From Gautieria morchelliformis (lineage: Eukaryota > Basidiomycota > Agaricomycetes > Gomphales > Gomphaceae), in the NCBI GenBank assembly GCA_015179125.1, contig WHVA01000413.1, positions 39,418 to 103,417 on the forward strand: 64,000 nucleotides of DNA. The letters run 5' to 3'. Made by a program: the position numbers and the translations under genes. How positions within the stretch are numbered: the first letter of the stretch is position 1; the number at the start of each line of letters is the position of its first letter. The notes under the pieces were generated by a model, which saw only the letters and a list, made by a program, of their open reading frames with translations, was not told the origin of the DNA and searched no databases. This document shows positions 32,793 through 59,130 of this stretch, piece by piece.

Positions 32793-33280
32793 TGTTGGGT
32801 GCATTTATGCTCCTGCACCAAAATCAAGCATAATATATTCAATTTATTGTGTAATGTTTCAATATTTTCTCATACTGTTCTTGTACTATGCATCCACTTC
32901 TCTGCTTATTTTCGAAATTTTCTAGTCACTCCCTATCTCTCCATTCCATTCTGTTATTTCTATTTTCATAGGCGGCTGCACCCAGCGGAGTTTGAAATGA
33001 CTTCGACGCGCGAGCCCTTGGGCGCTAAAGGGCCGGGTGCAAGTATATGCCTTCTGAGACAGGATTACACTCCTCTCTCAGTGACAATAAATTCACTGAG
33101 AGAGGCGAGTAGTATCTTTCATATTTACATAGCATGTTGACTGAAAATCATGTAGTATATTTGATTCTAGGTATTGTATTAATATATCAGTGACAATAAA
33201 TTCACTGAGAGAGTATATTTGATTCTAGCTTTCTAAGAACTCTACCGAACCTTCCCTGCCATAGCCCCTAGTTGCTAACA
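32793..33280 (+). repeat. Copia 5' LTR
   Basis: 488 bp, TG...CA. It contains a perfect 13-bp inverted repeat (CCTCTCTCAGTGA / TCACTGAGAGAGG, loop of 8) at 33072-33105 and a second partial copy of the same unit about 110 bp downstream. Confidence 0.93.
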
Positions 33281-33294
33281 AGGGTTATGGGCCC
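33281..33294 (+). promoter_or_regulatory. Copia primer-binding site (half initiator tRNA-Met)
   Basis: AGGGTTATGGGCCC directly after the 5' LTR. It is complementary, with at most one mismatch to the yeast tRNA as I remember it, to the anticodon stem-loop of initiator tRNA-Met, as in Drosophila copia, rather than to a tRNA 3' end. The ATG within it is also the first ATG of the polyprotein. Confidence 0.75.
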
Positions 33295-36200
33295 CGCAGA
33301 CACTTCGCAGAAGCTTTTGGGTGTGGAGAAGCTTGCAACAGATGGAAGTAATTGGCCTCTGTGGCGAGCTACTCTCACAAGTTATTTTGAGTCCAAAAAT
33401 CTACTCAGGCATATAGAAGGGAGAGCCATTCGACCTCCTGATCCTCCAGTCATGCCCCCAGGCCATATTCTCACAGAAGCTGAGGAAACTCAGATTGAGA
33501 AGGCTGAGGAGAAGCTGGAAAAGTATCTTGCCAGAGAAGGACAGGCCAAAACCCAAATAATCGTCTCAGTGTCAGAGTCACTAGCTCTGATGCTACAGAA
33601 GAGACATACAGCAAAAGAAGTCTGGGATGCATTGGTCAATGAGATGACCAAAAAGCCCAAGATGGTCCTCACCAACCTACAGAGACAGCTTCGCAGTATG
33701 AGGTGTCCTGAGGATGGAGACTTGAGAGATCACTTGGACAAGGCCCAAGACCTCTATGCTCGTCTCAATGAGATGGGAGCCAGAATTTCTGAAGGAGAGT
33801 TCACCGACATCATCCTTGCATCACTTCCACCCTCCTATGAGGCAGTTATGAATGCCCTTACCACGTCGCTCGAAGAATGTGGAATGCCCTTAGTGCCTGA
33901 TGATATTATCAGAGTACTAAAGGCTCAATATGACAGGAGAAAGACCCTCAATATTTCACAAGAAGAGCAGGCATTTATTGGTTCATCTACGAAAGGGCAG
34001 AAGGGCCGGAAAGACCCGAAGGTGCTTGCATGCACTAATTGCCACAAGCCTGGACATGCTATAGAAAGTTGCTGGGCTAAAGGAGGTGGTAAAGAAGGCC
34101 AGGGGCCACGTCAGAAGAAGAAAGCGAAAGCCAAAAAGAAGAAGGGCAAAGCCAAGGCGAATGTTGCCGAAGAAGTGTCCTCTGAGGAGGATGAGAGTGG
34201 CAGTCCAGCCGCTTTCGCCAACTTCGACTGCTCTAATTTGAGTAGTTTATCTCTGGACACTGTTGTTATCCTCGACACTGGAACGACCGCACATATGACC
34301 CCTCACAAGAATTTATTGAGGGATTACAGTCCATTCTCACAGCCGCGCACAATTCGTGCAGCCAACAAAGGCACTTTTGATGCCTTCGGTTCAGGCTCAC
34401 TCGTGCTATCTAACAAGGTTGGAGATAAGACTGTGAACATTACATTGAAGGATACGTTCTACGCGCCAAAAATGGCTGTTACCCTCATCTCGATCGGCCG
34501 GTGCGATGATGCAGGCTATAACACACAAATAGCTGATCAGAAATGCACAATATCCAATCGTAAAGGCAGGATATTGATGCAAGCACCGAAGCTGAATGGC
34601 TTATATCGATTTGATTTACAACACACAAGTGCCGAAGCGCATGTATGCGCATCAGCCATGGAGATACATCAAAAAATGGGGCACATTTCACAAAAGTCCC
34701 TACAGCACTTGCTCAACCGTGGCATGATATTAGGCATTGAATTGAGCTCAAAAGGTGACAAGGTTGTTTGCGATGCGTGCATTCAGGCGAAGATTGCACG
34801 TAAATCACTTCCTCAGGAACCCAGAAGCCGATCATCAAAATTCGGTGACAGAATTTATTCTGATGTCTGGGGACCAGCGAGACACTCCACAATTGACAAG
34901 AAATCCTATTATGTGTCTTTCATCGACGACTACTCAAGAGAATCGGTTATCTATTTGATGGCAAACAAATCGGAAGCATTTTCAAAATACAAACTCTACG
35001 AGGCCTTGATGCTTCGACAGAGGAATATGCACATCAAAGCACTTGTTTCCGACAGAGGGGGCGAATACACAAGCTCAGAATTTGAACAGCATTTGGCCAA
35101 GCAAGGCACGAAGCATCGGTTAACCGTGCACGACACCCCAGAGTCAAATGGTGTTGCTGAACGTTTAAACCGAACTCTAGTTGAAAGAGCTCGTGCCATG
35201 CTATTGGAATCAAGTCTTCCTAAGACTCTATGGGGGCATGCAATTTTGCACGCCAACTATCTTAGGAATCGGACACATACAAGAGCTTTGCCAGACAAAA
35301 CCCCTTTTGAAATGATCCATCACGAGAAACCGAACCTGAAAGACATGCACGTGTGGGGAATTGAAGTCTATGTTAAAGTCAAAGAGGGAAACAAACTAGC
35401 AGCCCGTGCCAAAAGAGCTCGGTGGATAGGAATCTCTGGACAGAGCCATGGTCACTGCATCTACTGGCCTGACTCTCAGAAGGTTTCTGTCGAGCGGAAT
35501 GTTATATTTGACTCAGAGATGAAGGGGGGCAAAGCTCCAATCATTTCTATTGAAGAGTCACAGCTACCTACATCCAGAAAAATGGTACAGGCCATCTTGG
35601 CGCCAGCACCTATGCCTAGCCGCTTAGTCAGCGAAGAGGCAAAGATCGAGGAAATTGATGATGATGAACCAGAGGAACATCTGAAAGAGCTGCAACCCAG
35701 TCAGACTGTTGATGCCAGACCTAAAGAAGCTGCTCCAACAAGGAGAAGCGAGAGAATCCGTCAGCAGCAGGTGCAGCCGGCCCCAAGTGGTCCCGTAACA
35801 AGATCTCAAACCAAGAGACATGCTGGTGCAGATATCACTACACTAGCTTACGAGGACATTGAGGACCATCAAGACAAATTATTCGAACAAGATTTATCCT
35901 CTGTCACTGACGGCATCAGTGATTATAACCTTGCCATCAGTACACTTTCGACCTCCGATCAAAACAAAGATAATGTGCTGCCGGATTTAAATCAGACCGA
36001 GCCTAGCAATGCAGATGAAGCCTTAAATGATCCTATGTGGAAAGCATCGATGGATAAAGAGTATAAGGTGCTACTCGACAAAGGTGTATGGGAAGTGGTT
36101 AAACCACCTCCTGGGGCAAATATTGTCGGAAATAGATGGGTATTCCTCTGGAAACGCAATCCAGAAGGTGAACCCATCACACCTAGATCGAGGATGGTCG

Positions 36201-37537
36201 CCCAAGGCTTTACACAAAGTTTTGGAGTTGACTACAATGAAACCTATGCACCTGTTGCTCGGATGACTTCCTTACGGATTATATGTGCCATTGCTGCCAG
36301 GAATAACTGGCCTATTCACCAAATGGATGTGGACAGTGCGTATTTGAATGCTACACTACCAGAACCTATTTACATGAGACAGCCGTATGGATATGAGACC
36401 GGAGACAAAGATGATGTCCTCCTGCTGAAGAAAGCACTTTACGGCCTCAAACAATCTGGAAGGGAATGGTACAAACGTCTGAGTGGTGAATTTCTCAAGT
36501 TAGGATTCACTAAATCAGCTTCGGATGGAGCTGTATTTTGCAGACGTGGACCGAGAGGGCATGCGATTATTGCGACGGCAGTAGACGACCTCACTATCAC
36601 AGCTGAGAGTCAACCAATCCTCGATGGGGTAAAGCATGATCTTGCCCAGATCTTCAGTATGAAAGATCTAGGCGAGATTCATTGGCTTTTGAACCTCAAA
36701 ATCGAAAGAGATTGGAATAACAAATCGATTGCAATATCACAAGCTGCATACATCCAAAAAATCATCAAAAAATTCAATCTGGATGATGCCAAAACATTTT
36801 CCACGCCTCTCGACCCAGCCGTTAAATTATCCAGAGACCAATGCCCTTCTACAGATGAAGACAAACAGAAGATGTCAAGAATTCCATACAGACAAACGAT
36901 AGGATCATTGATGTGGGCAGCAGTAGCCACTCGACCGGACATTGCGTTCGCAGTGTCATTACTTTCTCAATTCCTCGAAAACCCAGGTCCAACACATTGG
37001 CATGCAGTCAAACGTGTCTTTAAATATCTAAAAGGCACGATGGACTACAAATTGACACTTGGGAAAAATCGAGACGGCCTCATTGGGTATTCAGATGCGG
37101 ATTGGGCTTCTCAAGAGCACAGGCACTCATACTCGGCTTATATTTTTCAGATTGATGGAGGGACAGTATCATGGAGTTGTCAAAAACAATCCATAGTAGC
37201 CCTATCATCAACTGAAGCCGAATTCGTTGCTCTGACTCATGCGAGCAAAGAAGCCTTATGGATGCGCCACTTTATTTCTGAAGTATTCCAACCGCTGAAT
37301 TGTCCCATCAAACTTTATTCAGACAATCAATCAGCCATTGCCATCGTCTATGGCACTCAACAACACACGAGGACCAAGCATTTCGACATTAGATTATATT
37401 TCATCCGAGATATAGTCGAAGATGAAGAAATTAAGCTTGTGTACCTACCAACGGAACACATGCTAGCCGATCTTCTCACTAAAGGACTTCCTAGTCCTAG
37501 AGTGAGAATCCTCAACGAGAAAATCGGAATATATTAA
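33287..37537 (+). CDS. Copia Gag-Pol polyprotein
   Basis: 1,416-aa single frame from the first ATG at 33287 (MGPADTSQKLLGVEKLATDG) to TAA 37535-37537. The order is copia-type: Gag with a zinc knuckle CTNCHKPGHAIESC (34031-34072), Lys-rich linker, aspartic protease ILDTGTTAHMTP (near 34,270), integrase HHCC (HQKMGH ... CDACIQAK, 34,670-34,785) and catalytic core (DVWGPARH, SDRGGEY, PESNGVAERLNRTL), then reverse transcriptase (FTQSFGVDYNETYAPVARM, QMDVDSAYLNATLPEPIYM, active-site box AVDDLTI near 36,585) and RNase H (YSDADWAS, LSSTEAEFVAL, YSDNQSAI). Gag and Pol are one frame with no frameshift signal. The box reads AVDD, where Ty1/copia enzymes usually have YVDD. Confidence 0.95.
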   Translation: MGPADTSQKLLGVEKLATDGSNWPLWRATLTSYFESKNLLRHIEGRAIRPPDPPVMPPGHILTEAEETQIEKAEEKLEKYLAREGQAKTQIIVSVSESLALMLQKRHTAKEVWDALVNEMTKKPKMVLTNLQRQLRSMRCPEDGDLRDHLDKAQDLYARLNEMGARISEGEFTDIILASLPPSYEAVMNALTTSLEECGMPLVPDDIIRVLKAQYDRRKTLNISQEEQAFIGSSTKGQKGRKDPKVLACTNCHKPGHAIESCWAKGGGKEGQGPRQKKKAKAKKKKGKAKANVAEEVSSEEDESGSPAAFANFDCSNLSSLSLDTVVILDTGTTAHMTPHKNLLRDYSPFSQPRTIRAANKGTFDAFGSGSLVLSNKVGDKTVNITLKDTFYAPKMAVTLISIGRCDDAGYNTQIADQKCTISNRKGRILMQAPKLNGLYRFDLQHTSAEAHVCASAMEIHQKMGHISQKSLQHLLNRGMILGIELSSKGDKVVCDACIQAKIARKSLPQEPRSRSSKFGDRIYSDVWGPARHSTIDKKSYYVSFIDDYSRESVIYLMANKSEAFSKYKLYEALMLRQRNMHIKALVSDRGGEYTSSEFEQHLAKQGTKHRLTVHDTPESNGVAERLNRTLVERARAMLLESSLPKTLWGHAILHANYLRNRTHTRALPDKTPFEMIHHEKPNLKDMHVWGIEVYVKVKEGNKLAARAKRARWIGISGQSHGHCIYWPDSQKVSVERNVIFDSEMKGGKAPIISIEESQLPTSRKMVQAILAPAPMPSRLVSEEAKIEEIDDDEPEEHLKELQPSQTVDARPKEAAPTRRSERIRQQQVQPAPSGPVTRSQTKRHAGADITTLAYEDIEDHQDKLFEQDLSSVTDGISDYNLAISTLSTSDQNKDNVLPDLNQTEPSNADEALNDPMWKASMDKEYKVLLDKGVWEVVKPPPGANIVGNRWVFLWKRNPEGEPITPRSRMVAQGFTQSFGVDYNETYAPVARMTSLRIICAIAARNNWPIHQMDVDSAYLNATLPEPIYMRQPYGYETGDKDDVLLLKKALYGLKQSGREWYKRLSGEFLKLGFTKSASDGAVFCRRGPRGHAIIATAVDDLTITAESQPILDGVKHDLAQIFSMKDLGEIHWLLNLKIERDWNNKSIAISQAAYIQKIIKKFNLDDAKTFSTPLDPAVKLSRDQCPSTDEDKQKMSRIPYRQTIGSLMWAAVATRPDIAFAVSLLSQFLENPGPTHWHAVKRVFKYLKGTMDYKLTLGKNRDGLIGYSDADWASQEHRHSYSAYIFQIDGGTVSWSCQKQSIVALSSTEAEFVALTHASKEALWMRHFISEVFQPLNCPIKLYSDNQSAIAIVYGTQQHTRTKHFDIRLYFIRDIVEDEEIKLVYLPTEHMLADLLTKGLPSPRVRILNEKIGIY

Positions 37538-39250: not shown

Positions 39251-39748
39251 TATAAGGGCAACCTAGGCAGATGCTCTACACTCAAGCGGCGAACTGGCGA
39301 AGGGGGATCCAAAGTAAGATAGAGAACTATATACAGGACACAGACATACCTGGCGAAGGGGGATCCAAAGAGAAAACTCTAAGGAACCCCTTCGCCACCT
39401 AACTATGACTATAAGTAAACTTGGGCATGCTAGCCCGATTACTGAATGCCCAAGTTACATAAGCAATCACGCCAGTGATAACAGGGCTGGACAGATAAGG
39501 AAGGAATGATGTCGGAAGGGGCTGGAACAGGAAGGGAAATAAACGGAACATAAGACAGAAGGATGCCGAAGGCTAGGAGAAGTTCAGGGGCCACCAACAA
39601 CATGCATGCAATAATGTGCACTGCGATAATGCATGCTGCGATAAAGCATGCGATAATGCATGTGATAATGCGCACTGCGATAAAGCATGCGATAATGTGT
39701 GCGATAATGCGCACTGCAATAATGCATGCGATTGGTGTTCCCTTGACA
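39251..39748 (-). repeat. GypA 3' LTR
   Basis: 498 bp. On the minus strand it reads TGTCAAGGGAACACC, a tandem array of GCATGCTTTATCGCAGTG-like units, TATA, the predicted RNA start, two copies of CTTTGGATCCCCCTTCGCCAG-type repeat, and CCCTTATA. A polypurine tract GAGGGGGGG precedes it. Confidence 0.85.
39294..39349 (-). other. Predicted 56-nt intron in GypA LTR leader
   Basis: Donor GTATGT at 39349 and acceptor CGCCAG at 39294, each preceded by a copy of the same direct repeat (TTTGGATCCCCCTTCGCCAG). A branch-like CTTAC lies near the 3' end. Its length and signals match host introns. See the findings. Confidence 0.45.
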
Positions 39749-48088: not shown

Positions 48089-49534
48089 TGTTTTGGAACC
48101 CTTCAAGACTTTGGTGTTATTGCTAACACTTCAATCTATCAGAACGTGTCGTTTATGAGACTCAAAGAATATTAAACAATGCTGCACACAACTCCGGAAA
48201 TAATTTAATATTTGTACCTTGGTTGCAATCCGCGTAAAAACTAGTCCAAGTTAATACGGATGCAAGGCAATACATTTCTTAGCAGCACTGAACAATAAAC
48301 TAAAAGAATGTAGGTTCAAGGACACTATCGGGGTCCAAGCATATTCCAAAATATAAAGGAATGTACTTAGCAGGCGAGTTTATAAATGGACTGCCCTGAT
48401 AATCTACCAGCGCACAGCAATAAAACGAGGGATGAATGAGTTTTAGAAGTGACTTGTGAAAGTCTCTAATCAGGAAAATCGACTGATCAGATCGTCTCGG
48501 GTATTGGAGTGCGAATGGCAAGACTATCAATTGACAGACTCACTCTGTAGAATTACACCTGGGGATTAGTCTAGGTGGCTAAGCAGAAAAGTATCTACTT
48601 AACAAGGAATTAGACACTAAAGTAAGTGAATAACCCTAGCTGGGATTAGCAGCTTAGTAAGATGCAAGTCACATGAGGTCACGTGGATAGAAGATGTTAG
48701 ATTGCTAGAATGATGATTCAAGGAGGTCAGAATGGCCTCCTTTTATATTGTAAATACACAGGATTACATAAAATGGGGTTCTTCTATCTATTAGGTGAGT
48801 GATGTCATAAGTAAATATTTGCACTGCTGAAACACACCCTCGTAACTATTGCGGCGTGTTTGTGCAAAGAAATTGGAAATAGATAGCCAATCACCTTCCC
48901 TGGTTTGCACAGCCTTACACAGCCTTTCACAGCCTTGCACTGCCCTGCACAGCCCTACACAGCCGCTATGACATCAAGGGGCCTATTTGGTGTCGTAGCG
49001 TTGCGTTTGGAGGACCCTTCATCCAATAGGCTTTATCAAACCTGCACCCTAGTTTTGGCTTTGTACATCTTTGTGTGACTTTGTACGCAGCCTTGCACAG
49101 CCATGGTTGCTATGATGCAAGTCATGTGCGAGCTGGGTTTGAATTGCACAGGCTTGTGTAAGCGGTAGAGGACACATTCAGACTCAGTGGCTGAGTTTGA
49201 GTGAGCCAAGGTACCGGAGTTGTAGGTGCTTGAGTGCCTGCAACTCCGAGTTTACGGTTCGTGGGAAGCTCTGGTCGGAGTTTTAAACTGAGTGGCTGTG
49301 GCAGAGTTGTGGACGTGCGTGGGTTCATAACTCTGCCTGATAGAATAAGGAGTTTTTGAGCCAGGGAAGCCAAGTTAAATGGCGAAAAAATAAGAGGAAA
49401 TTCAAGGAATATTTGAATAGAATTCTCCCAACAATAGCCACGTTTATTAGCTACTATCAGCTGGGAAAACAGGGTTTTAAAGTGATTTTAATCCTTTTTT
49501 CGCGAGGCTTTTCATTAGCAACGGTTCCCACACA
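48089..49534. mobile_element. Solo LTR of a fourth family (LTR-C)
   Basis: 1,446 bp beginning TGTTTTGGAACCC and ending GGTTCCCACACA, with duplication CAGAC (48084-48088, 49535-49539), inserted in the GypA 5' LTR. No long frame is present. A cluster of CACAGCC units spaced by 2-5 bases lies at about 48,905-48,965. Orientation is not determined. Confidence 0.75.
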
Positions 49535-49797
49535 CAGACATACCTGGTGAAGGGGGATCCAAAGAGAAAACTCTAAGGAACCCCTTCGCCACCTAACTAC
49601 GACTATAAGTAAACTCGGGCATGCTAGCCCGATCACTGAATGCCCAAGTTACATAAGCAATCACGCCAGCGATAACAGGGCTGGACAGATAAGGAAGGAA
49701 TGATGTCGGAAGGGGCCGGAACAGGAAGGGAAATAAACGGAACACAAGACAGAAGGATGCCAAAGGCTAGGAGAAGTTCAGGGGCCACCAACAACAT

Positions 49798-49993
49798 GCA
49801 TGCAATAATGCGCACTGCGATAATGCATGCTGCGATAAAGCATGCGATAATGCGCACTGCGATAAAGCATGCGATAATGTGCACTGCGATAAAGCATGCG
49901 ATAATGCGTGTGATAATGTGCACTGCGATAAAGCATGCGATAATGCGTGTGATAATGCGCACTGCGATAAAGCATGCGATAATGCATGCGATT
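49798..49993. repeat. Tandem repeat array in GypA 5' LTR
   Basis: Imperfect units of about 25-30 bp built from ATAATGCGCACTGCGATAAA and GCATGCG. The same array at about 39,604-39,733 in the 3' LTR has fewer units. Confidence 0.8.
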
Positions 49994-50426
49994 GGTGTTC
50001 CCTTGACATTGCCGGCAAAGGTGCTCCTTCAGAGCCCTTCACCGACAGCGCAGATAATAATACGAAGACTAAGGTAACGAAGATGAAGTATGAAAACTCA
50101 CCAGTGGTGCTTAAGTCCTCCTCTGGTCGAAGATAGGAATCTACAGGAGAGGGCTCAAGACGATGATCACAGTGAGGTCAAGTTTTGCACAAGATAGACA
50201 TATGATAATTGAACTGGAGAGTATACATGTGAATGTAGACTACTTGTACCGAATGCCCATATGGTATCAGTGAATAGGAAAGAGGCCGTCATGAGTCAGG
50301 GTTGGGTAGGGGTGCGCAGTCAGGATAAGTTTCAGATCGTGGGGTACTGTAAGGTTGTTGGCTTATTACTTGTGTTATCACAAGGTAGTAGAACTTGACC
50401 AGACTATGGTGATTCTAATACGACAT

Positions 50427-50464
50427 AGTGATGGTTACAGGTAAAGTGATGGTTACAGGTAAAG
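50427..50464 (+). repeat. 18-bp direct tandem repeat
   Basis: GTGATGGTTACAGGTAAA occurs twice in a row downstream of the element X gene. Confidence 0.85.
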
Positions 50465-50619
50465 TTAAGCTGGGGAATCCCGGGGGATTCCCACGCAAGA
50501 ACTATACAGTGGGTCCACAAGGACCCACTGGCGCTATGTAAGCTACCAGCTATTATGTGTTGCCTCGCGGAAACACAGGTAAATACCTATATTTACACCC
50601 TCCCCCACTATAGAGAACT

Positions 50620-52641
50620 CTAGTCTCCATAGATGTCATCATCGAGGTCTTTATCCTCGGGTGACGGAGTGTCGTCCATTGGGACGTCCTCGTATGGAGC
50701 CGGCAGGGGCCGGGGGTCCACGTGCATTGCATCTGCATGAGTGGATGTAGATGGGCCGGGTCCGGCTCGGGGTTGGTACGGACCTGTTTCAAGAGATGGG
50801 TCAAGTCCCATCTCCTGGATGAAGGCGGCCTCCATGGCCGGATCAGGCTGCGGATCCGGGGGGCGGGACGCGAGCAGCTCCTTGTTGAGCTGTTCTGAAG
50901 TGCTTGCAGCCGCTTTCTTGCGGGCGCACTGGGACAACTTCAGTCCCTGTTTATGCCACCGCTGCCCCATGCGTGCAGTGGTGTTCACGACTTCCTTGTC
51001 ACGAAGTCCCTGGAAGTATCCCTTGATCCAAGGGATATGTTCATGGTTTACGCCGGCATGAAGGGCTAGCCATGACACGAGCTCCTTCAGTGGGATCTTG
51101 TGCGCAAGTCTGTTCCTGAGCGGGAACGTCCCAGTGATCAAAGCCCGCAGGGTGTCTGCAGTGGGCGATGGGATCGTGACGTCGGTCACGAGGTCGAGCC
51201 ATTGGCCTGGTGTACCAAACAAGTCGCTTAAACGCGACTTGAGAGGGGATCGTGGCTTGCCCTTGGGGGCCAGGATCCGCACCCACATCCAGATATCGAT
51301 ATCTGTTGTGTTGAGCCCACCCTCCACATCATTGTGGATGGCGGGAGGGACTCCTTCAGCGTTGGACCGCCACCCGTTAAGCACCGTGACGATATCGTCA
51401 GGTGTGCTGTCCAAAATGTTGATATAGTTTGGACAGGGCTTACGGGGGCCCTCCTCATGGAGGCGCCGGAACACCGTGTTCATTTCCGGCATGTGCTGGT
51501 CGACCAGAGTGTCCCTAGTGAGCAGGAGGAGGTCTAAGAACCTCTGCTCGCTGATCGGGCAGACGTGGTACCACTCGGCAACCCGAGGGACTGATCTGCC
51601 TAGGGGCTGCGGCAAGCGGCCTGTCACGCAGATCGGTGGATCTCCGTGTCTCAACGGCTCCCCTTCCCCTGGGTAGCGTTGCACAACTCCCGACCCCAGC
51701 GGCGGTAGCACAACATGAGGCCCAATGTATTGGGCCTGAGTGGTGGTTAGTGCTTGTTGTAGCTGGGGGTCATCAATGCCATGCGCCGACGACTCTGCTA
51801 GATACCTGTCCTTGATGCGTTCTAGTTCATCCGCCAGTCCGTTTTCCATGACTGGTGGTGGGAGGTATGTTCTGCATTTCCGTTTGGAAATGCGTTCAGG
51901 CCGATCTGGGTCATAATCGTCCCAGATCGACATGTCCGACAGCCACCCGGCCGGGATGTCGGTGTCGTACGACTTGAATGGCGCCATTGCAGTCAACAGC
52001 GTGGTGACTGTCGCTGTCCTGGATGCCACTCGGGCGTCCGTGACGGGTGCCGCGCTGGGCTCCGTGATTCGGTTGGCCAGCACCGGACCTGTTGAGAGGG
52101 GCGGGGCCCCTGGGGCTAGTGTTGCCCCCTTTTCACGCGATGGCAATGGAGCCATCAGGCCAGAGGATGGGCCGGCCACAGGCTGAGCCTTTGGCCGTGG
52201 CAGGGCGGGACACGTCTACCTGGCTCCTTCAAGTTGTTGTTTCAACTCGTGGATTTTGTCGTCCCGGCGTGAGACTCGCTCACGCTCGGAGATGAGGTCC
52301 TGCTTGAGGTGCTCAATCTCTGCCTGAGCATCCTCAACTGCCATCCGCCTGGCCCCTTTGGTGATCCAGGGCCAGGCGTCCTCAACGGCATAGGCGATGT
52401 CATCATCTAGCATCTGTATCTTACCAGAGTTGGATGACTCCACTAGGTGTGTTGCGTATGATTCGCAACATTCGCATTTATCTGAGTGGATAATAGCGAG
52501 GCCGTCATTCCACGACGCTATCTCCAGTTTTCGGGAGCTAGTTTTTTTCGAAAAGATCGCAACGGCCCCCTTCTTTGGGGCCACTGGTCGTGGTGTGGAC
52601 GTTGATGGCTCAACATCCATGACTTCTTTGATGCCATCCAT
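50620..52641 (-). pseudogene. Unrecognised ~670-codon gene of element X, with in-frame TAG
   Basis: One frame from ATG 52641 to a stop at 50620. The N-terminal 141 codons contain a Cys cluster (SDKCECCESYATHLVESSNS) and a coiled coil (AEIEHLKQDLISERERVSRR), then TAG (52218-52216) and the same frame continues for about 530 codons: a Pro-rich linker, RVAEWYHVCPISEQRFLDLL, TRDTLVDQHMPEMNTVFRRL, HEHIPWIKGYFQGLRDKEV and an acidic Pro-rich tail ending DKDLDDDIYGD. No intron of normal length removes the stop, so it is either a nonsense mutation or a read-through site. I do not recognise the family; it may be a structural or Gag-like protein of an unknown element. Codon use is constrained by the hairpins that cover it. 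Confidence 0.6.
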
Positions 52642-52685
52642 CTTCGTTAGAAGATGGTGGTGGTCGCTTCTTAAGAAGTGAAGCG

Positions 52686-52930
52686 CCCTCGGAGAGATCC
52701 GAGGTGAAAATTTATAGCGCCGTGGCTTGGCGCATCACGTGATCACACGTGACCAATGCGTCCTAATGCCGTTTAGGCAGGTCACGCGGTTTGGCCACGC
52801 CTCGAAGCTCTAGATAGGTATCTAGGGCCTCGAGGTCCTTACACGATGACATGGGCTCCCATGTCATGTCTCCTAGAGTCCATCTGACTTGGAACTCTAG
52901 GTCCTTTGAGTTTATCCATCAATGGGATAA
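52686..52930. repeat. Dense stem-loop array upstream of the X gene
   Basis: Consecutive inverted repeats: CCTCGG/CCGAGG (52686-52703), TCACGTG/CACGTGA (52735-52752), a nested CCTCGA...CTAGATA/TATCTAG...TCGAGG (52800-52835), ATGACATGGG/CCCATGTCAT (52846-52867), CCTAGAGT/ACTCTAGG (52872-52901) and TTATCC/GGATAA (52912-52930). Little unpaired sequence lies between the last four. Confidence 0.85.
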
Positions 52931-52979
52931 GACTGTAAGGGCAACCCTGGCTAGTTGTGGAGATCACACTACCACACAA

Positions 52980-53042
52980 CTGACAAGGGGAAATCCAAAG
53001 TCTGTATAAATGAACAGAGCATACAAGAGAGGGGATTCTCAC
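52980..53042 (-). other. Predicted 63-nt intron in GypB LTR leader
   Basis: Donor GTGAGA at 53042 and acceptor CTTGTCAG at 52980, each preceded by the same direct repeat. It is conserved in length in the solo LTR at 43566-44055. Confidence 0.45.
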
Positions 53043-53100
53043 CTGACAAGGGGAAATCCAAAGAGAAAAGTCTAAGGACCCCCAATGTCAGCGAGCCCGT

Positions 53101-53106
53101 ATTATA
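53101..53106 (-). promoter_or_regulatory. GypB TATA box
   Basis: TATAAT on the minus strand, 33 nt upstream of the predicted start opposite 53073. The same spacing is seen in the GypB 5' LTR (58818-58813 to 58785) and in GypA (49607-49602 to 49574). Confidence 0.55.
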
Positions 53107-53396
53107 CTACGCTGCGCAGCCAGGGACAACACTTGGCACCCGCCATCAACCCTGCACCTCCCTGACCCTTGATCGACCCTTGATGTCACCTATTACGCGA
53201 GTCGCTTGATTTCCGACACTGTTCCGAGGGTGGAACTCGGAAATTGGAGTGGAACTGGGAAGGCGAACAGAACTGGTGGAAGTTCTCCCAGAAGCGGAAT
53301 CATTTCCGAGAGCGGAGGCGGAGATGGAATCGGAATCGGAAGCGTCTTCGGAAATGGAGTCGGAACTGGAAATGGAAAACAGGGTGTCCCCTGACA

Positions 53397-56300
53397 TCAC
53401 CCCCTCTCTAGCGTGCTGCGTCCTCGAAGCACGAGACACGAGGGATTGAAATGCCAACGAGCGGATCCGGCGAGGGGCACCGGGATGTGTCCTATAGAAC
53501 TCCCCGAGCTTGTCCGGGGCGGAAACATCTTGCTCCGGGACCCACGAATTCTCTTCGTACCCATACCCTTCCCATTTCACGAGGAATTGGAGTCGTCCTC
53601 GCACAAACCGGCTGTCCAGGATCCGTTCCACCACATAGTGCTCCTCCCCATCTACAATCTCTGGCAGAGGTGGCGGATGAGCCTTCCGACCTGGAATTGG
53701 GTCCTCAAGCATAGGGAGTAACTTCACCACGTTGAAGACGGGGTGGAGGCGGGACATGGACATCGGAAGTCGCAGGCGGTATGCATTCCGTCCAACCCTC
53801 CGCGTCACTGTGAAGGGCCCAAGGTAGCGGTGGGCAAGCTTCTGTGAAGGGCGTGTGGTGCGGATGTCACTTGCATCTAGATACACCTTGTCTCCAACTT
53901 GGTACTCCGGGGCAGGAACCCGGCGTTGGTTGTAGTACCTCGCCATGTCATCCTTGGCCTTTGCAAGGGCCGACTTGGCTTCCGAAAGGGTGGAGTCCAT
54001 GCGGTCTCGGAACTCATTGACCGTCTCGAGTCGGGACTCAGCCTGGCGTGGTTCGAAGCCCATCCGCGGGTGTCGTCCGGAGTCGAGCATGAAGGGAGTC
54101 TGTTGTGTGGCGGAATGGACATGGTTGTTGTATTGGAATTCCGCCAGCGGAAGTAATTCATCCCAGTCGTCCTGCCTCTCATTGACAAAGAGGCGGAGAT
54201 ATTGCTCCAACTCCTGATTGACCCGTTCCGTCTGTCCGTCACCCTGCGGATGGTACGCCGTGGTGGTAGCTAGCTTTATGCCGAGCAGGTGGTAGAGCTC
54301 CCGAGTCAGTTCCGCGACAAACTGCGGACCTCGGTCGGAAACCACTTGCTTCGGGAGCCCATGCAACTTCCAGACATGGGCAAGGAACAGGCGGGCCGCT
54401 CCGAGGGCTGTGATCGTCGTGTGCGTCGGAATGAAGTGGGACACCTTGCTTACCGAATCCACGACGTTCATGATCGCGTCGTAGCCATGAGACTCTGGGA
54501 GTTCAACAATGAAGTCGACGCTGATGGTGTCCCAGCGGGATTCGGGAATCGGGAGCGGAACAAGTTCTCCGACGGGTGGATGTCGTTGCGCTTTGGTTCG
54601 GAGACAAAGGTCACATGTCTTCACGTACTGTCCAATGTAGCGGGACATCTGAGGCCACCAGTAATTCCGAGCCACTAACTCCAGCGTCTTCCACCTGCCA
54701 GCATGCCCAGCGACCCGTGTGTCATGGTGCTGGGACACGATGCGGCGGCGGAGGTCCGCCCCATCTGGAACGTAGACCTTGCCTCTGAAGTGGAGCAGCC
54801 CATCCCGTTCCGACCATTCCGCTGCCCGTACAGACCGTGAGTGCCCTTTCCGAAGTTCCTCCACTGCCTTCACCACCGACTCCTCCTTCTCTCCATTCCG
54901 ATACTGTCTCCGGATGTCCCGGAGCATTTCCGCTTCCGCTCCAACTGCAGTCACTCCTTCTAGGGCGCGGATTGCAAAGAGACTTGGGCGGAGCAGTGTC
55001 ATATCCGCATTGTCTCCGCTTCCGCTTCCATGATCCGCACGGCGGGATAGGGCATCGGGCTTGCCCATGGTGCGGCCGGGGCGGTGGTGGAGCATGAAGT
55101 CAAACCGGGACAGGTGTAGGGACCACCGTGCTTGTCGTCGGTTCAACTTCTTAGACGTGCGGAAATACTCAAGGTTCTTGTGGTCTGTCCAGATCTCAAA
55201 TGGGCATAGAGCACCCTCAAGGAAGTGTCGCCACTCCTCCAGCGCTCGGATGATTGCCAGCATCTCCTTGTCATGGATCTCGTAGTTCCGCTCGACCGGA
55301 CTGAGACTCTTAGAGAAGAAGGCAATCGGATGCCACCCCCCGCCTTCTTCCGATGACTGTTGCGACAAGACCGCTCCGGTAGCTGCGTCGGAAGAATCCG
55401 CCTCCACTCGGTAAGGGCGAGAGTCGTCGGGAAAGATCAGGACCGGGGCGGAAGTGATCAGCTCTTTGAGTTTGTCAAAGGAGGCCCGTTCCGGCTCTCC
55501 CCACCGCCATCCAACCTCCTTCTTGGTGAGGTCGAAGAGGGCACGGGCGTGGCAGGAGAAGTCCTTGATGAACCGCCGGTAGAAATTGACAAACCCAATG
55601 AAGGACTGGACTTCCTTCTTGTTCCGCGGCACCGGCCAATCCGACACACCGGAAACCTTGACGGGGTCCATTTCCACCTTTCCTTCCGACACGATCACCC
55701 CAAGATACTCTATCCGCGTCCGCTCAAATTCGCACTTTTCCGGCTTGAGACACAGGTTGTACTCCCGGAGTCGTTCCAGCACTCTCCGCACGACTTCCCG
55801 ATGTTCGGACATTGTTTTTGTGAAGATGAGGATGTCATCGAGGTAGACGCAGACAACCCCTTCTGCTATCATGTCACGGAAATGTCATTCATCATTGTCT
55901 GGAACGTGGCAGGACTGTTGGTGAGGCCAAAGAACATGACCTGTGGCTCAAAGAGTCCTCGGTTGGTGCGGAATGCGGCCTTCCACTCATCTCCCTCCCG
56001 GATCCGGACATTATTGAAGCCCCAGCGGACATCCAGCTTGGTGAAGTACTTCGCCCCGCGGAGTTGTGTGATCAATTCGGAAATGAGCGGAATGGGGTAC
56101 CGGTTCTTGATCGTGATCGCATTCAAGGCCCGGTAATCCTGCACAAGTCTGAGCGAGCCGTCCTTCTTCTTGATGAAGAACACCGGAGATGCCATGGGTG
56201 ACTTGGAGGGGCGGATCCTCCCTGTACGGAGATTTTCCGCAAGGAATGCATCGAGCTCTACCTGCTCCTTGGGTGACAGCGGGTAGACCTTGCAGTTGGT

Positions 56301-57299
56301 GGGATTCGACCCAGGCTCCAACTCGATGGCATGGTCCCACAGTTTCCGCGGAGGCAGGGCATCAAACGACTCCTTGGAGAAGACGTCCTCAAACTCCCGC
56401 AGGTACTCCGGAATTTCCGCCTCCACTCTATCATACCTCTTAGAGGCTTCAGCAAGGCGTTGCGAAATATTTCCGGTGGCGCGGATGTGTTCCGCCTCCG
56501 GCGGAAGGTTTACGTACAGCAAGCGCTCCCCTTCCGTCAGAGCGTCTTCCAGGCCGAGTCGGATGGCGTCGGAATCGGACTTGGAAGGGGGATCCGGGTC
56601 AATTCCGTTCCGAGTCTTCTTCTGCAAGCAGGATGGGGCCGGAACGACATGTCTGTATGAGCCGTTCGGTCTTCCGCTGCTCCTGGTGCTCCTTCCGCGC
56701 TTCCGACCGACACATGTGACACTTGGCTGGACATCGACTCATCAGTACCTTCCGAGTCTGCCAATTGATCTCTGGGTTGTGCTCTTGAAGCCAGGTAAAC
56801 CCAAGGATGATGTCTTGCTTCCCCAGGCTGGTGACAGCGAAGGAAGTGCGTTCCGAGTGTCCATCGTAGCGGAGAATTGTGTCCACTATCTCCGTGATGG
56901 ACCCTGCCTCATTGGGGCTTCCATCCACATTGAACACCGGGATTGCACGTTGCAACTTCCGCGTGGTCAGTCGGTTCCGTTCCACATAGTCCCGGTCCAT
57001 AAACTGACCAGTGGCCCCGCAATCGACAAGGGCGGGTCCGGATTTGACTTCCGCCGTATCTGTCGTCTGGATCTCTACCTTAATGACTAGTGACTTGGGC
57101 CAGGGGTGGCAGCAACGACATAGCGCTTCGGAAGGCGTCTCTCCCAAGGGCGGATGCGGGATAGACGGGGTGTCGGATTTGGCTTTTGTGTGACTTTATC
57201 CGGTGGGTCTGTATGAAGTGAGGGGAGTCGGGGCTTTTCATTCTCTACTTCAAGACAGGCAAACCGGTTATGTACAGGCAGCAGGGGCACACATCTCAC
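53397..57299 (-). pseudogene. GypB Pol, broken by a single-base frameshift in RT
   Basis: Protease-like LVDCGATGQFMDRDY (near 57,025), RT (DYRALNAITIKNRYPIPLIS, MFFGLTNSPATFQTMMNDI), then a one-base loss in a run of T about 55,880 shifts the frame before CVYLDDILIF. From there 900 codons stay open: RNase H (FFSKSLSPVERNYEIHDKEM, WTDHKNLEYFR), integrase HHCC and core (CDLCLRTKAQRHPPVGELVP, DTISVDFIVELPESHGYDAI, VVSDRGPQFVAELTRELYHL), and a chromodomain (LQFLVKWEGYGYEENSWVPE). A further shift lies near 56,600. GypB is younger or better kept than GypA. Confidence 0.88.
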
Positions 57300-58465
57300 C
57301 CGCTGCGCGTCACAAAATCCGACGCATCTTCCGCTTCCGATGCGCCATGTTCCGCATTTTCGGAAACTCCTTCCGCAGTAGGCACTCTGCTTATGTCCGC
57401 AAGTGCGAGGAACTCTGGAAGGCGCTCGAGTTTCTCCTCTGTGGTCATAAGCCGGATGTCAAATGCTTGGGGGCACTCGCGGGCATAGTGGCCTGGTTGT
57501 TGACATCGGAAGCAGGTGATAGTTCCGCGGCCTTCTCCGCGCATGCGGTCAACATCCATCGGGGCAGGGCCACTCTTCGAGGGAGGAGGGCTATGGTTCC
57601 TAATAGGAGCGGGCGGAGAAAGCGTCGGAAATACTTTCCGCATGGGAATGAATGCGCTTCCGGATTTTGGCACAGGTGGAGTAGGACGAGTGGAACTGCG
57701 CGTCATATTCCGGCTCGTCTCCACGAAGGCCTCATTTGCTTCCCTGTTCCGGGACACCCTCTGTGCAGCTTGGTACCACCCTTCCGGGTCATCAAAGTCC
57801 GGAGCTCCATCCCCAAGCAGCGCAACTTGGTTCTGGAGTGTCGGATCGAGTCCTCGTCGGAATTTGATGACGATCGTCTTGTCGTCATCATACTCCGCAA
57901 GGTCGATGAGCTCCTGGAAGCGATCGATATAGTCATCGACCGGATCCTTGGCCTGGTACCAGCTGGTCCCCTCGAGCTTCGTAAGGGCTGTGAGCTGCTC
58001 ATTTTTGGGCAGAACTGGTCGGAAAATGTTTTCTCGAAGGCGTCCCAGTCCGGAAGTGTTCCCCTTGCCCTTTGCTTCATGTCGGATCACCTTGTTTGCA
58101 AAACGGGATGCGCGGTCCGATTGAAAAAGGACAATGCCAGTGAATCCGAGCCTGGTCGTTCGGAAAGAGGTCTCCGACAATTGCGAAGTAGATGCTGCAT
58201 GTGTTGAAGAATGCGCGTCCCTTCTCCCGATCTCCGTCAAAGTCCGCCGGAGTTGCGGGTTTGACCTTTGCTAACTTCGCGGACATCTCTCTTCCGCTAG
58301 TTCCGCTTTTCCGAAATCCGGATCATCCAGCATTTCATTTCCACCACCTTGTGGAATATCTAACTTAGCCAAAATCGCTTGTAAGGCTGTTTCAATCGCG
58401 TCGGTCTTCATCCGGTTCCGCGTCAATTCCTCCTCCATATTCCGAAGACGATCGTCCGGATCCAT
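57296..58465 (-). pseudogene. GypB Gag, frameshifted
   Basis: ATG at 58465 (MDPDDRLRNMEEELTRNRMK), then frameshifts near 58,280 and 58,120, a capsid region (DPVDDYIDRFQELIDLAEYD, KFRRGLDPTLQNQVALLGDG) and an intact zinc knuckle CFRCQQPGHYARECPQAF. It ends DASDFVTRSG with TGA at 57298-57296 overlapping the pol frame, as in GypA. Confidence 0.85.
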
Positions 58466-58634
58466 GTGGAAGGAGAAATATGGGACGGGATTTCCGGGGT
58501 TGGGAGCTCGACGTAAGAAGAGGGCTGTCGTACGCTGTGTGTGCGGAAGAGGTTGCGATCTCCGAGTCGCTGTCTCCGATTCCGAACGCACCTATGGCGA
58601 ATGCAACGCAGTACGACCCCGGTCCTCTAGGGAG

Positions 58635-58644
58635 AGACTTTTCT
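58635..58644 (-). promoter_or_regulatory. GypB predicted self-primer binding site
   Basis: AGAAAAGTCT on the minus strand, two bases after the 5' LTR. It is a perfect 10-base complement of AGACTTTTCT at the predicted RNA start in the LTR (opposite 58785-58776 and 53073-53064). Confidence 0.55.
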
Positions 58645-58646
58645 GC

Positions 58647-59130
58647 TGTAAGGGCAACCCTGGCTAGTTGTGGAGATCACACTACCACACAACTGACAAG
58701 GGGAAATCCAAAGTTGTATAAATGAACAGAGCATACAAGAGAGGGGATTCTCACCTGACAAGGGGAAATCCAAAGAGAAAAGTCTAAGGACCCCCAATGT
58801 CAGCGAGCCCGTATTATACGCTGTGCAGCCAGGGACAATGCTTGGCACCCGCCATCAACCCTGCATCTCCCTGACACCCTGACCCTTGATCAACCCTTGA
58901 TGCCACCTATTACGCGAGTCGCTTGATTTCTGACACTGTTCCGAGGTGGAAGTCGGAAATTGGAGTGGAACTGGCAAGGTGAGCAGAACTGGTGGAAGTT
59001 CTCCCAGAAGCGTAATCATTTCTGAAAGCGGAGGCGGAGATGGAATCGGAACCGGAAGCGGAGTCGGAAATGGAGTCGGAACTGGGTGTGGTGTCGGAAC
59101 TGGAAATGGAAAACAGGGTGTCCCCTGACA
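58647..59130 (-). repeat. GypB 5' LTR
   Basis: 484 bp, similar to the 3' LTR but with an additional CGGAA-type tandem segment. It interrupts the LINE reading frame after YYLAIASQECSTPL. Confidence 0.88.

Follow-up and report, generated by a model that had tools for sequence, protein, structure and literature searches.

In the fungus Gautieria morchelliformis, a Ty3/Gypsy chromodomain LTR retrotransposon has a genome, comprising LTR, gag, pol, and a third open reading frame (ORF3), for which an extreme degree of genome-scale ordered structure is predicted. On balance, this structure has probably been retained through selection acting on the genome in its folded, single-stranded form, of which the genomic RNA is the likeliest. 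We infer such selection from an excess of hairpins over shuffled sequences, their extent from gag to the LTR, their presence in two diverged element families, and their loss under simulated drift. The window analyzed is a 64,000-nucleotide stretch of contig WHVA01000413.1, in which the element parts described below lie on the reverse strand.

A preliminary description of the window placed a hairpin-saturated gene at 50337..52933 and suggested an undescribed kind of element. The limits were essentially right, as the points where other copies cease matching set the edges of the element piece at 50348-52932. Matches to the segment in its own genome comprised 63 stretches, the window included, many of which end at query positions 2 and 2586. 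The kind of element, however, is a familiar one. Domain and structure matches identify the segment as the 3' end (chromodomain tail, ORF3, and 3' LTR) of a high-copy Ty3/Gypsy chromodomain LTR retrotransposon belonging to an old, decayed family. The window copy lacks the 5' part and is truncated at 52932, where the neighboring Gypsy element GypB starts; other copies continue upstream of this point into the chromodomain and integrase. Gag, protease (PR), reverse transcriptase-RNase H (RT-RH), and integrase (IN) are present upstream in copies elsewhere in the genome, and their order, gag-PR-RT-RH-IN, is a composite of several copies (PR-RT-RH-IN in L049, gag upstream in L058-L060). Profile matches to RVT_1 (E 2e-21), RT_RNaseH (E 1e-24), Integrase_H2C2, and SH3_Tf2-1 were above cut-off, and those to protease, rve, Ty3_capsid, and zf-CCHC were all below theirs. 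The solved structures nearest to the RT-RNase H were 4ol8 (E 9e-59), which we take to be the RT/RNase H of Ty3, and the Ty3-G Gag-Pol 7q5b (E 3e-58). The element thus resembles Ty3/Gypsy chromoviruses in its LTRs, gag with a CCHC-like knuckle, aspartic protease, integrase with an SH3-like tail, chromodomain, and an RT-RNase H that is closest to Ty3 among solved structures. It differs from them in its saturation with perfect hairpins and in having a further ORF downstream of pol, for which the database searched contained relatives in Gautieria alone.

The chromodomain end of pol (52763..52932; stop TAG 52765-52763) was delimited by comparing its frame with L048/L049 and L062, and is interrupted in the window copy by an in-frame TGA at 52921-52919. 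In L062, the match to Chromo PF00385 (E 1.4e-4, 22.2 bits) is slightly under the curated cut-off of 25.1, and its position after the integrase SH3-like domain is that expected for a chromovirus. ORF3 follows downstream of pol at 50620..52641. Its frame of 674 codons, stop included, agrees with the protein of about 670 residues first described, but is broken here by one in-frame TAG (52218-52216). As also described, the protein could be matched to no known family: ORF3 had no Pfam match over cut-off, and its homologues in the database searched were from Gautieria only. One stretch of ORF3 is coiled-coil-like, as judged by weak Pfam hits. The 3' LTR (TGTAAATA...CTTACA, 250 bp, 50348..50597) has ends of the TG...CA type (TGTAAA...CTTACA). 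The same sequence precedes gag at 42-273 of L058, the one copy in which a 5' LTR was found; it is 232 bp long there, and an 18-bp tandem duplication makes up the difference. We also considered a stand-alone unit with a 9-bp target duplication and rejected it: CTTACA forms the LTR terminus of the present element, and the sequence before 52932 is part of the neighboring Gypsy.

Screening of 50337-52933 for perfect stems with loops of 3-14 nt revealed 41 stems of at least 6 bp, compared to a mean of 6.4 (maximum 10) in 30 dinucleotide shuffles, and 21 stems of at least 7 bp, compared to 1.85 (maximum 6) in 100. At least 8, 9, and 10 bp were paired in 13, 6, and 2 stems, respectively, where dinucleotide shuffles gave means of 0.31, 0.05, and 0.02 and maxima of 3, 1, and 1. 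Within the frame 52641-50620, 8 stems of at least 8 bp were observed versus 0.37 ± 0.55 (maximum 2) in 60 codon-preserving shuffles. The initial claim of saturation (at least 28 stems, 14 of them of at least 8 bp) is therefore borne out against both kinds of control proposed with it, and simple composition or codon usage can be rejected as the cause. A known structured RNA family was also ruled out, as an Rfam search of 50300-53000 returned no match at E<=1. Tiles of 2597 bases that did not overlap the segment contained 0-3 stems of at least 8 bp, and the four that overlapped it, in part or nearly whole, contained 2, 9, 11, and 4. The coding regions tested from GypB, Copia, and LINE showed no excess of stems of at least 7 bp, in keeping with the first description.

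Stems occur throughout the segment. The LTR contains a 10-bp hairpin with the sense loop TTGT (50507..50530) and an 8-bp hairpin with the sense loop CCCG (50473..50492), both with similar hairpins, matched by eye and not aligned, in a second, young element family. A 9-bp hairpin lies over the chromodomain codons TWEPMSS (52846..52867), beside an 8-bp stem with a 14-nt loop in the same domain (52872..52901). The 8-bp hairpin previously noted over the ORF3 start codon (52638..52657) is present, and the ORF3 start codon of the young family is also under a hairpin, of different sequence. Separate functions are possible for the hairpins over the ORF3 start and within the LTR. Within ORF3, stems of 10 bp with a 13-nt loop (52346..52378) and 9 bp with a 12-nt loop (51407..51436) are accompanied by a 9-bp hairpin with a 3-nt loop (51017..51037) and by 8-bp hairpins with loops of 4 nt (51874..51893 and 51718..51737) or 6 nt (51220..51241 and 50793..50814). 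In a further 9-bp stem (51902..51929), one pair varies between AT and GC on both sides across copies.

The excess of hairpins runs from gag to the LTR and includes the gag, PR, RT-RH, and IN of other copies. In the four stretches tested, 22-32% of the sequence lies in perfect stem-loops of at least 6 bp, and stems of at least 7 bp far outnumber those in codon-preserving shuffles of the frame of L067 (27 versus 3.2), ORF3 of L062 (16 versus 2.4), IN-chromodomain (15 versus 1.8), and the old RT-RH (10 versus 1.1). The young family is largely open-reading, with an ORF3 about 40% identical to that of the old family and an integrase region about 76% identical in DNA, and both families are saturated with hairpins. 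Spacing was within the random range in all four stretches (CV 0.79-1.10), and no shared tetraloop motif was apparent by eye; of 34 tetraloops, 4 in sense and 2 in antisense were GNRA or UNCG. We accordingly rejected a series of packaging signals placed at regular intervals and sharing one loop. Of the stem registers, the one that sets wobble positions opposite each other was the least used (29 of 137 stems, counting copies of one family repeatedly), as would be expected if stems were built at synonymous sites.

The preliminary description also considered a mutational process that writes palindromes. Such a process, for example RT template switching or quasi-palindrome correction, would make selection unnecessary. 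In its favor, the stems are perfectly Watson-Crick with few G.U pairs and turn over between families. However, stem-bearing and stemless copies were a single substitution apart at 29 of 29 integrase, 54 of 61 young ORF3, and 86 of 99 old ORF3 loci; two substitutions separated them at 7 young and 12 old ORF3 loci, and three at one, although this smallest-difference measure misses old events masked by intermediate copies. Moreover, the most frequent loop length is 4 nt (34 of 103 loops), not the minimum of 3, and the Copia of L049 has no stems of at least 7 bp in 1950 bases. With no multi-base writing seen, we consider a palindrome-writing origin improbable.

Covariation between homologous copies, another expectation raised at the outset, was found between families in one direction and was near background within them. 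CpG decay accounts for many of the double changes in stems. When CpG sites were retained, compensated variable pairs amounted to 94/371 versus 605/4616 in controls (old family) and 27/223 versus 342/3762 (young family); with these sites removed, the excess shrank or vanished (10/151 versus 112/3484 in the old family and 4/81 versus 126/2592 in the young). Between families, about half of the integrase stems persist, a few with compensating changes. When young-family integrase stems of at least 6 bp present in at least 4 of 14 copies were examined in the old family, one of nine combinations of direction and stem length tried, 19 of 129 cells were unpaired where 42 were expected (0 of 1000 control draws were as low), and both-sided compensations numbered 6 versus 2.1 (p=0.015). 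Compensation was not significant for young stems of at least 8 bp (2 versus 0.7, p=0.17). In the reverse direction, old stems showed no excess of compensation in young copies (3 versus 2.4), nor were those shared by the two old copies significantly kept (unpaired 23 versus 27, p=0.17). The substitution rate was lower in stems (0.087 versus 0.133), but because stems were picked as perfect in one copy, which biases this rate, we do not take it as proof of constraint. A third-party test of stems of at least 7 bp gave 0.103 versus 0.147 in 20 old copies and 0.124 versus 0.151 in nine young copies, with young pair counts that took in badly aligned 5' columns. In six of those nine the values were only 0.087 versus 0.091, and for stems of at least 8 bp sites were hardly more conserved than others (0.085 versus 0.091).

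Near-background covariation within families and the free decay of copies are compatible with hairpins being a passive relic, seeded in both families by one saturated ancestor and without upkeep. Drift, however, erases stems. In simulations, 12% change cut 27 stems to 8.5 and 24% cut them to 1.9; about 70% were lost once change reached 10-12%, and almost all at 24%. Yet both families are saturated despite divergence of about 24% in integrase DNA and 60% in ORF3 protein, and many of their stems are family-specific. These observations suggest that active lineages must have kept or rebuilt their hairpins, and make a passive relic very unlikely.

The predicted folding-energy excess of the element is 22-30%. 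Relative to codon shuffles, the sense excess was 22-27% (z -6 to -12) in 5 of 5 element coding sequences tested, compared to -1.4% for GypB and -7% for LINE. Scans of L059 in 350-nt fragments show a sharp rise where the element starts, and folding energy is well above order-shuffled controls over most of the element genome. Two tests each found a larger excess in the sense than in the antisense strand for 5 of 5 sequences; this bias may reflect A/C-rich composition, and is also seen, more weakly, in GypB and Copia. In a stem-fixed test of L071, the strands differed by only 0.1 kcal.

A single-stranded DNA phase, the third possibility first raised, would place selection on minus-strand cDNA or on both strands, keeping only perfect Watson-Crick stems, for example for guidance of strand transfer, protection of cDNA, or prevention of autointegration. 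The antisense strand is indeed 15-21% better folded than codon shuffles. Distinct family-level loci with single mismatches in otherwise good stems comprised 16 A.C, 5 G.U, and 40 others, superseding pooled counts (A.C 48, G.U 15) that repeat the same loci. A.C, which is G.T in the minus strand, thus exceeds G.U, and the lack of a sense-strand G.U preference among these loci counts against selection on sense RNA alone, which should favor G.U. Single stem changes, on the other hand, lean slightly the opposite way (G.U/A.C 291/275 versus control-pair means of 397/543), and, as the control ratio demonstrates, G-to-A bias is by itself enough to make A.C commoner. Together with the larger sense excess in 5 of 5 sequences, this makes a DNA-stage explanation the less likely one, though compatible with the missing G.U preference. 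A selected genome-wide RNA fold best fits the excess over shuffles, the gag-to-LTR extent, and the presence in two families more diverged than simulated drift would permit, with mixed evidence on the strand.

If the RNA fold is selected, what matters would be how much local folding there is and not any individual stem, as proposed for GORS viruses. Individual hairpins would come and go through point substitutions, mostly at synonymous positions, with no fall in overall density. Ahead of packaging and reverse transcription, folding would compact the RNA and shield it from RNA surveillance or nucleases. In the available part of the GORS study (PMC7642675), such viruses combine high MFED (about 15% in SARS-CoV-2 and 23.4% in the highest vertebrate RNA virus of that study) with poor positional conservation of structure, and GORS is linked to persistence of RNA viruses. 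Like them, the Gautieria element has a high MFED and predicted structure throughout its genome, coding regions included, with many local stem-loops in succession and stem positions poorly conserved between relatives (PMC7642675). Unlike these viruses, it is an LTR retrotransposon with a DNA stage, its stems are unusually perfect, and its antisense strand is structured too. Its MFED of 22-30% stands against the 15% or so of SARS-CoV-2 and the vertebrate-virus maximum of 23.4%, a rough comparison across different fragment steps and shuffle programs.

Among LTR retrotransposons, the structure of Ty1 genomic RNA has reportedly been mapped by SHAPE. Ty3 genomic RNA, as mapped by SHAPE, likewise has structured regions dispersed over the genome, and neither 'MFED' nor 'covariation' occurs in the accessible text of that paper (PMC11381356). 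We found no report of dense perfect hairpins in Ty3 or Ty1 genomic RNA in the portions of these sources available, and none of GORS in a retrotransposon in the literature searched. An intact Copia of the same genome has ordered RNA and no perfect-hairpin excess, which hints at host RNA-surveillance pressure on retroelement RNA in this fungus. We tentatively raise the possibility that genome-scale ordered RNA structure can be selected for in retrotransposons as in viruses; the Gautieria chromovirus lineage would be an extreme, perfect-hairpin case. With many datable fossil copies, two diverged saturated families, and unstructured neighbors in one genome, this system would allow a test of what maintains such structure, where RNA surveillance, packaging, and DNA-stage roles could be separated by comparing lineages with and without it.

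Perfect inverted repeats with loops of 3–14 nt (stems) were counted by script in the segment at 50337–52933, the minus-strand 3′ end of a retrotransposon. The segment contains 41 stems of at least 6 bp, where shuffles average 6.4; at least 7 bp is reached by 21 (1.85 in shuffles) and at least 8 bp by 13 (0.31 in shuffles), with six of at least 9 bp and two of at least 10 bp; same-size tiles of the window that do not overlap the segment have 0–3 stems of at least 8 bp each. These counts bear out the hairpin saturation reported in a preliminary description, which placed the limits of the segment almost exactly. Loop lengths peak at 4 nt (34 of 103), followed by 3 nt (17 of 103). Hairpin placement along the element is random.

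The segment has at least 63 matching stretches in its own genome, itself included, at 76–100% identity (best 40 of 1253 first candidates scored), and 39 loci with such matches were fetched. Nineteen of the 21 copies whose match reaches 52932 run on upstream with a common coding sequence; the window copy is truncated at 52932, where it adjoins the Gypsy element GypB, and carries a TAG in the frame of ORF3 and a TGA in that of the chromodomain. The upstream part encodes retropepsin, RT-RNase H, integrase, and chromodomain (copies L048 and L049), with gag bearing a zinc-knuckle-like motif further upstream (L058–L060). RT, RNase H, and integrase zinc-binding and SH3-like domains score over Pfam cut-offs; protease, integrase core, chromodomain, Ty3-capsid, and CCHC matches fall under them. 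Among solved structures, the nearest relative of RT-RH is Ty3. The 3′ LTR (TGTAAATA...CTTACA; 50597–50348, minus strand) also precedes gag in L058. Given the domains upstream in other copies and an LTR at both ends, the element is a chromodomain LTR retrotransposon of the Ty3/Gypsy type, in which an additional ORF3 separates pol from the 3′ LTR. Its length of ~10 kb is summed from coordinates of several copies rather than read from one assembled element. GypB (53100–59130, minus strand), directly upstream, likewise ends in CTTACA; its LTRs are inferred at ~53100–53400 and 58910–59130 from repeated translated sequence, and the frames past it are LINE-like by eye. At L060 (344–1054), a 237-codon open frame, DDE transposase-like by eye, lies upstream of a copy lacking its 5′ end.

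ORF3 matches no Pfam family over its cut-off and no solved structure below E 0.2, in keeping with its initial description as an unrecognised family. Protein searches, including one with an alignment of both families described below, recovered Gautieria proteins alone among the 8000 most word-sharing candidates scored each. In the old, decayed family, which includes the window copy, ORF3 is 61–84% identical to the window ORF and has many stops. A second, young group is 38–40% identical to it, and 18 of its 23 listed ORF3 matches lack an internal stop. DNA of one young member (L062) finds copies at 92–97% identity among the best 40 of 2389 candidates scored, and more divergent copies also exist. 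The hairpin noted over the ORF3 start codon is present, and the start codon of the other family also lies within one, of different sequence. Two LTR hairpins look similar between families, matched by eye only.

The young family is also saturated. L062 (3.3 kb) has 27 stems of at least 7 bp versus 2.7 in shuffles, and nine young copies have 15–33 in 2.8–3.0 kb (15–33 in five with open frames of 682–716 codons, 15–20 in four with shorter frames). On the L062 contig, a different Gypsy upstream has few stems, and the count climbs at the start of the hairpin element.

Six ORF3 frames have 13–27 stems of at least 7 bp, against 1.5–3.2 after synonymous codon permutation; equivalent values are 15 against 1.8 for integrase-chromodomain and 10 against 1.1 for old RT-RH. 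In GypB, Copia, and LINE, such stems are no more numerous than under codon permutation, as first reported for their coding regions. Dinucleotide and synonymous codon controls rule out composition or coding as the source of the stems. Sense-strand folding energy in five element CDSs is 22–27% lower than in codon permutations (z −6 to −12), and antisense energy 15–21% lower; sense-strand control values are −1.4% (GypB) and −7% (LINE). Against dinucleotide shuffles of 350-nt fragments, the sense excess is 22–30% in five element sequences. In a coronavirus study, the comparable measure (MFED), obtained by similar but not identical methods, is 1.1% for unstructured viruses, 7.5–10.7% for HCV, and about 15% for SARS-CoV-2, with 23.4% the highest vertebrate virus value (PMC7642675). 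A folding-energy scan of locus L059 gives −6 to 1 ahead of the element and 10–42 from its start. Outside the element, positions 48301–50050 of the window have an excess of 12–42% on both strands, partly over tandem repeats; arrays at 49816–49992 and 39604–39732, near different elements, share similar TGCGATAATGCA-like units with periods of 12, 27, and 39.

When young sequences were mutated at random with a bias to synonymous change, 27 stems fell to 16 at 5%, 8.5 at 12%, and 1.9 at 24% change. Integrase DNA differs by about 24% between the families and ORF3 protein by 60%, and both families are saturated despite such losses under drift; hairpins must therefore have been kept or regained in the lineages that remained active. 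Allowing a difference of one pair, about half of integrase stems of at least 6 bp are retained across families (9 and 11 of 21, 11 of 22, and 10 of 19, per comparison); some other stems are confined to one family. Retained examples include a hairpin over DYLMV(V/I) (GACTACC/GGTAGTC in young, GATTACC/GGTAATC in old) and another with AGTTCACG/CGTGAACT in young and AGTTCACA/TGTGAACT in old copy L048. Of 129 cells for young-stem pairs in the old family, 19 are unpaired versus 42 expected, a value that none of 1000 control draws reached; both-sided compensations number 6 versus 2.1 (p = 0.015). Going from old to young, the result is weaker (34 of 144 unpaired versus 47, p = 0.012; compensations 3 versus 2.4 expected), and it is not significant for stems shared by the two old copies (23 of 84 versus 27, p = 0.17). 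Within families the signal is weaker, and most differences appear to be post-insertion decay, chiefly at CpG. With CpG sites removed, compensated pairs in nine young copies are at background (4 of 81 variable pairs versus 126 of 2592 in controls), and in 24 old copies about twice background (10 of 151 versus 112 of 3484). These within-family data give no demonstration of ongoing compensation, the outcome to be expected were most copies dead.

Stem gain or loss is one substitution apart in 29 of 29, 54 of 61, and 86 of 99 loci. This speaks against palindromes being written from a template several bases at a time; a mutational process that writes palindromes had been suggested. Excess folding energy is greater in the sense than the antisense strand in five of five sequences against codon permutations, and again in five of five with perfect stems kept fixed, in L071 by only 0.1 kcal. 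On balance we favor, with some reserve, selection on folded genomic RNA; a role of the hairpins in cDNA or both strands is the less likely alternative. Single mismatches at distinct loci speak for the latter and against an RNA-only reading, since G.U (5) is not preferred over A.C (16; other, 40). Because control elements have a weaker sense bias of the same sign and some cross-family comparisons are not significant, we rate the RNA reading somewhat lower, and the DNA role somewhat higher, than we otherwise would.

The preliminary description knew of no fungal precedent for this architecture. The class of the element is a known one; searches of open-licence PMC papers turned up no LTR retrotransposon with whole-genome hairpin saturation of comparable degree. 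The intact Copia at 33272–37537 (plus strand, 1421 aa frame) has folding excesses of 14.8% (sense) and 7.5% (antisense) versus codon shuffles, and a related copy in L049 has no perfect-stem excess. Such ordered RNA without excess perfect stems suggests that retroelement RNA folding may be under wider pressure in Gautieria morchelliformis.
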